64,000 bases of DNA from Candidatus Binatia bacterium (lineage in GTDB: Bacteria > Desulfobacterota > Binatia > Bin18), in the NCBI GenBank assembly GCA_022826945.1, contig JAJDTY010000037.1:1-64000 (forward strand). The letters are read 5' to 3'. Numbering within the stretch: the stretch's first letter is position 1; each line of letters starts with the position of its first letter. The notes beneath the pieces are model-generated. The model had not been told where the DNA came from. It searched no databases and worked only from the letters and a program-made list of their open reading frames with translations. The position numbers were made by a program, and so were the translations under genes. Shown here in pieces: positions 10,253 to 12,422 of this stretch.

Positions 10253-10861
10253 ATGAAACGTAAAGAAGAGATGACGTGGTGGGAGCGACTGTATATCCCG
10301 GAAATCGTGCGTGGTCTTGTTGTCACCATGTCCCACTTCTGGCGGAATCTGACGCTGCATATGCTGCATGCGCTCGGCTTCGCCAAAGGGACGCGGGCTG
10401 CATATACGGTCCAATATCCGGAAGAGCGCAAGCGCTACCCGGACGTCTATCGGGGGAGTCACCGGCTGACGCTCAAAGAGGACGGCTCGGTCCGCTGTAC
10501 CTCGTGTTTTCTGTGTGCAACGGCCTGTCCGGCCAACTGCATTCACATCGAGGCTGGGGAACACCCCGACCCCGACGTGGAAAAATTTCCGTTGCGCTAC
10601 GAAATCGATACCCTACGCTGCATTTACTGCGGGATGTGCGTCGAAGCCTGTCCATGTGACGCGATCCGGATGGATACCTATGTGCATCCGCGCATTTGGG
10701 GCTATGATCGTAAAGATTTTATCGAATCCAAAGAAACCCTTATGAATCGTTCCCGCACCCTGGCGACGGGTGGCCGGGATTCCATTATGACTGAAATGCT
10801 GGAGAGTTATCAGGAAGCAGAGCAGCAAGTAGCCAAGGAAATTGGCGCCCCTGGAGCCTGA
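10253..10861 (+). CDS. nuoI: NADH-quinone oxidoreductase subunit I-like ferredoxin (isolated)
   Basis: RCTSCFLCATACPANCIHIEAGEHPDPDVEKFPLRYEIDTLRCIYCGMCVEACPCDAIRMD. Confidence 0.88.
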   Translation: MKRKEEMTWWERLYIPEIVRGLVVTMSHFWRNLTLHMLHALGFAKGTRAAYTVQYPEERKRYPDVYRGSHRLTLKEDGSVRCTSCFLCATACPANCIHIEAGEHPDPDVEKFPLRYEIDTLRCIYCGMCVEACPCDAIRMDTYVHPRIWGYDRKDFIESKETLMNRSRTLATGGRDSIMTEMLESYQEAEQQVAKEIGAPGA

Positions 10862-10883: not shown

Positions 10884-12062
10884 ATGGCAAAGACCTATCA
10901 GGAACTCATGACCGAGGCCCGAGACAGTGTACCGGAAGTCACGATTGATGAGGTGCAAGCCCAAATGGAAAACGGTGCGCGGCCAACCTTGCTCGATGTG
11001 CGGGAACGCGAGGAGTACCGTGAGGGCCATCTTGAAGGATCGGTCCCGCTCCCGCGCGGTTTTCTCGAAATGCGCATCGAAGAGGCCGTCCCGGATAAGA
11101 ATACGCCCATCGTGGCGTATTGTGCCGGCGGCGTCCGCTCGCTCATCGCCGCTCGGACGCTCAAGGAAATGGGCTATGAGAATGTGACTTCCATGTCCGG
11201 CGGCTATACGGCTTGGAAAAACGCCGGCTATAAATGGGTGGCGGATCGACAGTTCACCCCAGATCAGATCACGCGCTACGCACGCCATTTTACCCTGCCG
11301 GAAGTCGGGGAAGCGGGTCAGGCCAAATTGCTCGACGCCAAAGTATTATGCGTTGGGGCGGGCGGCCTCGGATCGCCGGTGGCTCTATATCTGGCCGCGG
11401 CCGGGGTCGGTACGATAGGGATTGCCGACCATGACACCGTTGATATGAGCAATCTCCAACGCCAGATCCTGCACACCAACGACCGGGTCGGGATGCCCAA
11501 GGTGGAGTCGGCGCAACTGACCCTGAACGCGCTCAACCCCGATGTCAATGTCGTCCAGTTCAAAGAGCGCCTCTCTTCCGAAAACGTCATGCGCATTATC
11601 GACGACTTCGATATCGTGGTGAACGGCTGCGATAATTTCCCGACCCGCTATCTCATTAACGACGCCTGCGTCATGGCCAAGAAGATGCTCGTCGATGGCT
11701 CGATCTTCCAGTTTGAAGGCCAGGTCACGGTGGTCGATCCGACCGAAGGCCCTTGCTATCGCTGCCTGTTTCCCGAGCCGCCCCCTCCGGGGATGGCTCC
11801 GAGCTGTGCCGAAGCCGGCGTCCTTGGTGTGCTGCCCGGACTCGTCGGCTGCGTGCAGGCGCTCGAAGTGATCAAGATCATTCTCGGTGCGGGCAAGCCG
11901 CTTGTCGGACGGATGATGCATTTTGATACGCTCAGCTCGGAAATCCGGGTGTTGAAACTGCGCAAAGATCCGAACTGTTTGGTGTGCGGCGCCAACCCGA
12001 AAATCAAGAAGCTGATCGATTACGAAGAGTTTTGTGGTCTGCGACCGGCCAACGCCGCCTAG
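10884..12062 (+). CDS. moeB: Rhodanese-ThiF/MoeB fusion (E1-like adenylyltransferase/sulfurtransferase, rhodanese at N-terminus)
   Basis: N-term LLDVREREEYREGHLEGSVPLPRG...IVAYCAGGVRSLIAARTL (rhodanese) then LCVGAGGLGSPVALYLAAAGVGTIGIADHDTVDMSNLQRQILH...CYRCLFPEPPPPG. Confidence 0.9.
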   Translation: MAKTYQELMTEARDSVPEVTIDEVQAQMENGARPTLLDVREREEYREGHLEGSVPLPRGFLEMRIEEAVPDKNTPIVAYCAGGVRSLIAARTLKEMGYENVTSMSGGYTAWKNAGYKWVADRQFTPDQITRYARHFTLPEVGEAGQAKLLDAKVLCVGAGGLGSPVALYLAAAGVGTIGIADHDTVDMSNLQRQILHTNDRVGMPKVESAQLTLNALNPDVNVVQFKERLSSENVMRIIDDFDIVVNGCDNFPTRYLINDACVMAKKMLVDGSIFQFEGQVTVVDPTEGPCYRCLFPEPPPPGMAPSCAEAGVLGVLPGLVGCVQALEVIKIILGAGKPLVGRMMHFDTLSSEIRVLKLRKDPNCLVCGANPKIKKLIDYEEFCGLRPANAA

Positions 12063-12093: not shown

Positions 12094-12351
12094 ATGGCCG
12101 ATTCCGTCACCATAACCGTCAAGCTTTTTGCGGCGCTGAAAAAATATACCCCGCAGGGGAGTCCGGATGGCGTCTCACTCTCCCTGCCCGCTGGGGCAAC
12201 AGTCCAGGACGCGGTTGATATGTTGAACATTCCACGCGAGCAGGCGGGTATGCTTGTTGTGGGTGATACCTATGTCGAAGTGGGGACGGTCCTTGAAAAC
12301 GGACTGGAACTGAGCATTTTTCCGCCGCTTGCCGGTGGGGTGTGTGGATAG
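12094..12351 (+). CDS. MoaD/ThiS-like ubiquitin-fold sulfur carrier with C-terminal extension after GG
   Basis: MADSVTITVKLFAALKKYTPQ...LENGLELSIFPPLAGGVCG*; adjacent to MoeB-like E1. Confidence 0.87.
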   Translation: MADSVTITVKLFAALKKYTPQGSPDGVSLSLPAGATVQDAVDMLNIPREQAGMLVVGDTYVEVGTVLENGLELSIFPPLAGGVCG

Positions 12352-12390
12352 CCACGGATAAGAAGGGCGCATGCCAGGGGATGATAGTGG

Positions 12391-12422
12391 AAAGGGACAC
12401 GGTCTACCGTGTCCCTTTTTTT
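12391..12422 (+). terminator. Rho-independent terminator
   Basis: gggacacgg-tcta-ccgtgtccc followed by 7 T. Confidence 0.9.

Follow-up and report, generated by a model that had tools for sequence, protein, structure and literature searches.

In the QbsE/QbsD and HcyS/HcyD systems, a sulfur carrier with residues after its Gly-Gly (GG) motif is accompanied by a rhodanese E1 and by a JAMM peptidase for trimming. Cleavage of related precursors has been described in other organisms. In D. radiodurans, DRJAMM cleaves the MoaD-MoaE protein DR2607 to a C-terminal Gly (PMC8832034), and MoaX of M. tuberculosis must be cut after Gly82 (PMC4326299). The ubiquitin precursor of Caldiarchaeum is processed by its Rpn11 homologue (PMC6043591). 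MoaD proteins linked to aldehyde ferredoxin oxidoreductase (AOR) were proposed by Iyer et al. in 2006 to serve tungsten-cofactor synthesis (PMC1779556), and the aor operon of Aromatoleum contains the MoaD-like aorD/aorE (PMC6365974).

The window analysed here is a stretch of 64,000 nucleotides (contig C70) from an uncultured Binatota bacterium. At positions 12094-12351, on the plus strand as are all window features below, it encodes an 85-aa ubiquitin-like sulfur carrier, MoaD-like and in precursor form. Its ORF starts at ATG 12094 and runs for 85 codons to the stop TAG at 12349-12351; this start was favoured over an upstream GTG at 12034, since in some congeners no long frame precedes the ATG. 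The protein scored 29.8 bits against PF02597 (Pfam ThiS, cut-off 22.5), which places it in the ThiS/MoaD superfamily, and 25.4 bits against the canonical MoaD model TIGR01682, below the cut-off of 66.15. The predicted structure is a beta-grasp, whose best PDB match was mycobacterial MoaD, haloarchaeal SAMP1 being nearly as good. Orthologues within the genus, from Binatia MAGs, are 89-99% identical. The C-terminus reads ...LSIFPPLAGGVCG, that is PPLAGG-VCG. The codons of Gly81-Gly82 (12334..12339), invariant in the alignment, would specify the adenylation/thiocarboxylation end once trimmed, and the Val-Cys-Gly tail (12340..12348) is predicted to be disordered, residues 82-85 being unstructured with pLDDT <50. 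The primary translation, expected in this superfamily to end in GG, thus runs on to GG-VCG, and the earlier note was right in describing a MoaD/ThiS-type carrier with residues after GG.

The same note had placed the carrier beside a rhodanese-E1 fusion, and indeed only 31 bp separate the two genes. The E1 (10884..12062, 392 aa) is an adenylyltransferase/sulfurtransferase composed of an N-terminal rhodanese domain (10944..11225, PF00581 on residues 21-114), with the active-site loop CAGGVRS, and a ThiF/MoeB-type adenylation domain (11277..11981, PF00899 on residues 132-366), with CxxC...CxxC zinc motifs. It matched the rhodanese-MoeB model PRK08762 (NCBIfam) over residues 4-385 with 565.1 bits (cut-off 449). 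The ATP loop GAGGLGS, SNLQRQ, DN and the two CxxC pairs are retained, and the Cys of PSCAEAG is aligned with Uba4/ThiF. Downstream of the carrier is a strong intrinsic-terminator-like hairpin (12389..12420, a 14-pair stem and a T-run), which congeners retain, some of them with substitutions in both arms; the E1 and carrier genes therefore seem to be the last of a single transcript. Upstream of the E1 lies a gene for a NuoI-like 8Fe ferredoxin (10253..10861), which scored 100.6 bits with the NuoI model, below the curated cut-off; it stands beside the E1 across the family wherever the locus extends that far, and its functional link to the E1 is uncertain.

The earlier note had left room for VCG being a sequencing artefact. 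Comparison of homologue C-termini excludes this as well as a frameshift, because the tail frame is open to the stop in all seven congeneric genomes. Three codons follow GG in each (VCG in six, VRG in one): GTG, then TGT, TGC or CGT, then GGA or GGG, before TAG. In the other genera of the family the orthologues end in GG-VA, -AR, -GV, -LH, -STSR, -LNVLHLPC or -LDVPCPAFARLRRI, and outside the family some E1-adjacent orthologues stop exactly at GG or GGG. The E1-adjacent carriers of one family (L039 and L041) seem to have just one terminal Gly (PPLAG). Among 18 aligned carriers G81 and G82 are invariant and the tail is not alignable; this drift among orthologues rules out a functional VCG motif. 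Given the invariant GG, the drifting tail and its lack of structure in the model, the tail is, on the evidence of these alignments, real but without conserved sequence of its own.

Tails after GG are not confined to the window gene. The genome has six carriers, and all except one have residues after GG: besides the window carrier, an AOR-linked MoaD (GG-SA) whose neighbours are an aldehyde ferredoxin oxidoreductase and an FAD oxidoreductase, a CysO-like protein within an E1-CysO-CysM-ThiF-like-CysD-CysN cluster (GG-SG), a MoaD-MoaE fusion (GG-APMDS...) and ThiS (GGG-C; contig C4, L104 5638-5832). The exception is a carrier beside xanthine dehydrogenase, which ends exactly at GGG. The fused MoaE, behind MoaD, is the only MoaE of the genome, so that molybdopterin synthesis could not do without cleavage behind GG, should the fusion act like MoaX or DR2607. 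In the window carrier, as in those two proteins, residues after GG would have to go to free the carrier end, but its tail consists of three residues rather than MoaE, the MoaD-MoaE fusion being a separate gene. In the CysO cluster, the second ThiF-like protein between CysM and CysD (L102 9745-10494) has no GxGGxG nucleotide loop and is probably a degenerate E1.

Every CysO, MoaD-MoaE, AOR-linked MoaD and ThiS sampled in the genus also has residues after GG. In a class survey of about 130 carriers from 43 genomes, tails were found in 30 of 34 MoaD, 29 of 37 CysO, 8 of 12 AOR-linked MoaD and 7 of 43 ThiS, and on most MoaD and CysO carriers their length varied from 0 to >100 residues. The seven tailed ThiS are exactly those of the window's genus, where TGC or CGC replaces the stop of other genera (GGG-C, with one GGG-R, in congeners L189-L194). 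In the class's remaining 36 ThiS, GGG is the very end, which places the loss of the stop codon at the base of the genus. In one relative (G008, L199), CysO is fused in frame to the N-terminus of an E1 and also needs a cut after GG.

The first and second tail positions were compared in a set of 56 tails, in which each carrier type is represented once per genus and ThiS is excluded. Directly behind GG stood A, S, C, R, G, V, T, L, K, N or M. The residues D/E/P/F/Y/W/H/Q, a set picked after viewing the Binatia data, occurred in 0/56 first positions vs 15/41 second positions (Fisher p = 4e-7; p = 4e-5 with fusions left out), and 22.6% of the codons after true stops encode them. A fairer test, because of the way the set was picked, is given by 19 tails from other phyla, mostly Rokubacteria and several of them closely related, in which these residues were found at 0/19 first and 7/19 second positions. 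In an ignored tail the first residue should vary like the others. The pattern looks like a cleavage-site constraint, as would be expected from a P1' preference of the trimming peptidase.

A search of the genome for a JAMM/Mov34 peptidase, as the earlier note had advised, yielded one on contig C66; the window itself contains none, just as that note had reported. The protein (C66:15007-15522) is a free-standing Prok-JAB of 172 aa, Mec/desampylase-like, with 67 bits against PF14464. It carries the motifs EECCG and HSHPNHDAYFSAED, the full E...HxHx7SxxD signature on a JAMM/MPN+ fold, and all 30 relatives inspected retain an intact HxHx7SxxD. In structure, the modelled protein resembles the Pyrococcus PfJAMM1-SAMP2 complex (TMt 0.81-0.83 to PfJAMM1) and also the Caldiarchaeum Rpn11 homologue. 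Its best NCBIfam match, the desampylase NF041370, reached 66.8 bits, below the cut-off of 130. The gene adjoins no carrier gene of the genome. This intact-motif protein supports the idea that the carrier would need trimming and that a JAMM is the candidate for it. A Mec-like JAMM gene was detected in 90 of 98 relatives, and as it is nearly universal in the class, co-occurrence of tail and JAMM cannot test their link there. The eight JAMM-less relatives are mostly incomplete MAGs and nearly all have tails or fusions. Among the eight, G020, 99% complete, combines a CysO ending GG-TTA with the lack of a Mec-like JAMM, its weak match being RadC (L168, L272); the exception is G061, where ThiS is the sole carrier found. 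Further JAMMs, encoded on contig C77 of the window's genome, were set aside as maturation candidates; they are part of an E1/E2/patatin island. Two ubiquitin-like modules are stacked in this island (L106 3774-11686), with genes for an E2-like protein, a ThiF E1, a JAB, two MBL-fold proteins and an E2-E1-JAB-patatin fusion of 1180 aa; it gives strong PADLOC E1-E2 and JAB matches and is a candidate anti-phage island.

The kinship of the carrier was examined with a tree of 83 rows (82 distinct sequences) on 81 columns, dimensions that leave many forks without resolution. The window carrier falls in a clade of E1- or FAD-oxidoreductase-adjacent carriers of the class (SH-aLRT 97), nested in a 58-row clade that also holds bacterial and Asgard archaeal AOR-linked MoaDs (SH-aLRT 95); the alignment behind this grouping is short and its branches are long. 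The class's canonical MoaD, CysO and ThiS lie outside this larger clade. The carrier thus resembles AOR-linked MoaDs of the AorD type (PMC1779556, PMC6365974) in its large clade and its IFPPLAGG end, and relatives' loci resemble theirs in containing a pyridine-nucleotide oxidoreductase, a 4Fe-4S protein and a MoeB-type E1. It differs in having no adjoining AOR, in belonging to an E1-linked clade of its own within the class and in its post-GG tail. Directly upstream of the carrier, several genera of the family encode a 4Fe-4S protein together with an FAD oxidoreductase of the AOR/phenylglyoxylate-dehydrogenase type; in L055 and L058, whose loci extend far enough to show it, these two subunits are flanked by the E1 on one side and the carrier on the other. 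No AOR was found beside the carrier in the orthologous loci examined; the genome has four AORs, on other contigs. The alliance with AOR-linked MoaDs, the oxidoreductase neighbours in relatives and the four AORs favour molybdopterin for W/Mo enzymes as the destination of the sulfur. Against it speak the lack of an adjoining AOR gene and the fact that the genome has both an AOR-linked MoaD and a MoaD besides the window carrier, and we consider this destination an evenly balanced proposition. L055 is the public contig CAMBFS010000031.1, titled Klebsiella pneumoniae, yet it carries Binatota genes in conserved order and is probably a mislabelled MAG.

These data bear on several other explanations. 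The earlier note had suggested a dedicated sulfur-transfer pathway. In a system like those of QbsE and HcyS, the output would be homocysteine or some special thiocarboxylate, and a partner JAMM would act on the window carrier alone. Like QbsE and HcyS, the carrier has a post-GG tail and a rhodanese-E1 neighbour, and the genome has a JAMM for a putative cleavage; moreover, carrier-E1-rhodanese-JAB operons are known (PMC1779556). However, no JAMM, AMP-ligase, sulfurylation partner, sulfhydrylase or sulfite reductase is present among the carrier's neighbours, and no product genes lie nearby. The JAMM is unlinked (C66 vs C70), class-wide and apparently general, and the E1 is of the MoeB/PRK08762 type with its rhodanese domain at the N-terminus, whereas the rhodanese of siderophore E1s is C-terminal (PMC1779556). 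Because the other carriers are tailed too, the tail being a genome-wide habit and not a mark of the window gene, the suggestion of a dedicated pathway was not borne out, and we regard it as quite unlikely. That the carrier is a second CysO, serving cysteine synthesis with CysM, draws on the presence of both an E1-CysO-CysM route, whose CysO is itself tailed (GG-SG), and a Mec-like JAMM, as in the CysO/CysM/Mec system. The CysO of the E1-CysO-CysM-CysDN cluster is, however, another protein in a separate clade of the tree, and on these two grounds the CysO identity of the window carrier was rejected, its probability being very small.

A function as protein modifier, with the carrier conjugated to lysines as in SAMP or urmylation systems and the JAMM acting mainly as a deconjugase that also matures the carrier, accords with the desampylase as best NCBIfam match of the JAMM (66.8 bits, under the cut-off), with SAMP1 and the PfJAMM1-SAMP2 complex as fold neighbours and with the resemblance of the E1 to UbaA/Uba4. 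The Caldiarchaeum ubiquitin system likewise combines a tailed precursor of ubiquitin fold with a JAMM of similar fold, but that system serves conjugation and includes E2 and RING. Since the E1 of the window includes a sulfur-supplying rhodanese, since neither a conjugation target nor a gene link came to light, and since kinship with sulfur carriers is clearer in the tree, modification of proteins appears unlikely, if less so than a dedicated pathway. Finally, the unprocessed form might be used directly, either by activation of the terminal Gly85 by the E1 or with the tail Cys carrying sulfur. The tail does end in Gly and has Cys in six of seven congeners, but in one congener this Cys is replaced by Arg, the last residue of orthologues is A, V, R, H, I or C unless GG itself is terminal, and the invariant residues are G81-G82; such direct use seems scarcely probable.

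Taken together, these features make it on balance probable that the window gene encodes a pro-carrier trimmed at GG by a general JAMM and then thiocarboxylated by the adjacent E1, for molybdopterin. A JAMM, for which C66:15007-15522 is the candidate, would cut after Gly82 and free the GG end. To judge from the comparative data, the carrier is very probably trimmed at GG, and this is quite probably done by the C66 JAMM. Its domains and conserved residues suggest that the rhodanese-E1 would then adenylate Gly82, the rhodanese giving persulfide sulfur for the carrier thiocarboxylate. In the last and weakest step, the sulfur would pass to molybdopterin for tungsten or molybdenum enzymes, and the partner could be the MoaE freed from the MoaD-MoaE fusion by the same cut. 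The tail itself would have no function, its first residue alone being constrained as a cleavage site would be; with trimming applied to nearly every carrier, the organism may tolerate it.

Since nearly all sister carriers in the genus are tailed, one general JAMM probably exposes all active ends. With nearly every carrier, ThiS included, having a masked C-terminus, this JAMM could even be a gatekeeper, and we tentatively suggest, with some doubt, that a single stand-alone JAMM gates nearly all sulfur-carrier pathways of the genus (thiamin, molybdopterin, tungsten cofactor and cysteine). The concept of JAMM trimming is already established; what appears to be new is its reach over nearly all carriers of one genus, together with the P1' constraint. 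Sulfur-carrier trimming has so far been shown case by case, and here tails occur on most MoaD and CysO of a whole class. For annotation, this means that ending in GG is an unsafe test for a working carrier. For such bacteria, it predicts that the JAMM would be a general, perhaps essential, enzyme of cofactor-sulfur maturation, analogous to the deubiquitinases that act on ubiquitin precursors.
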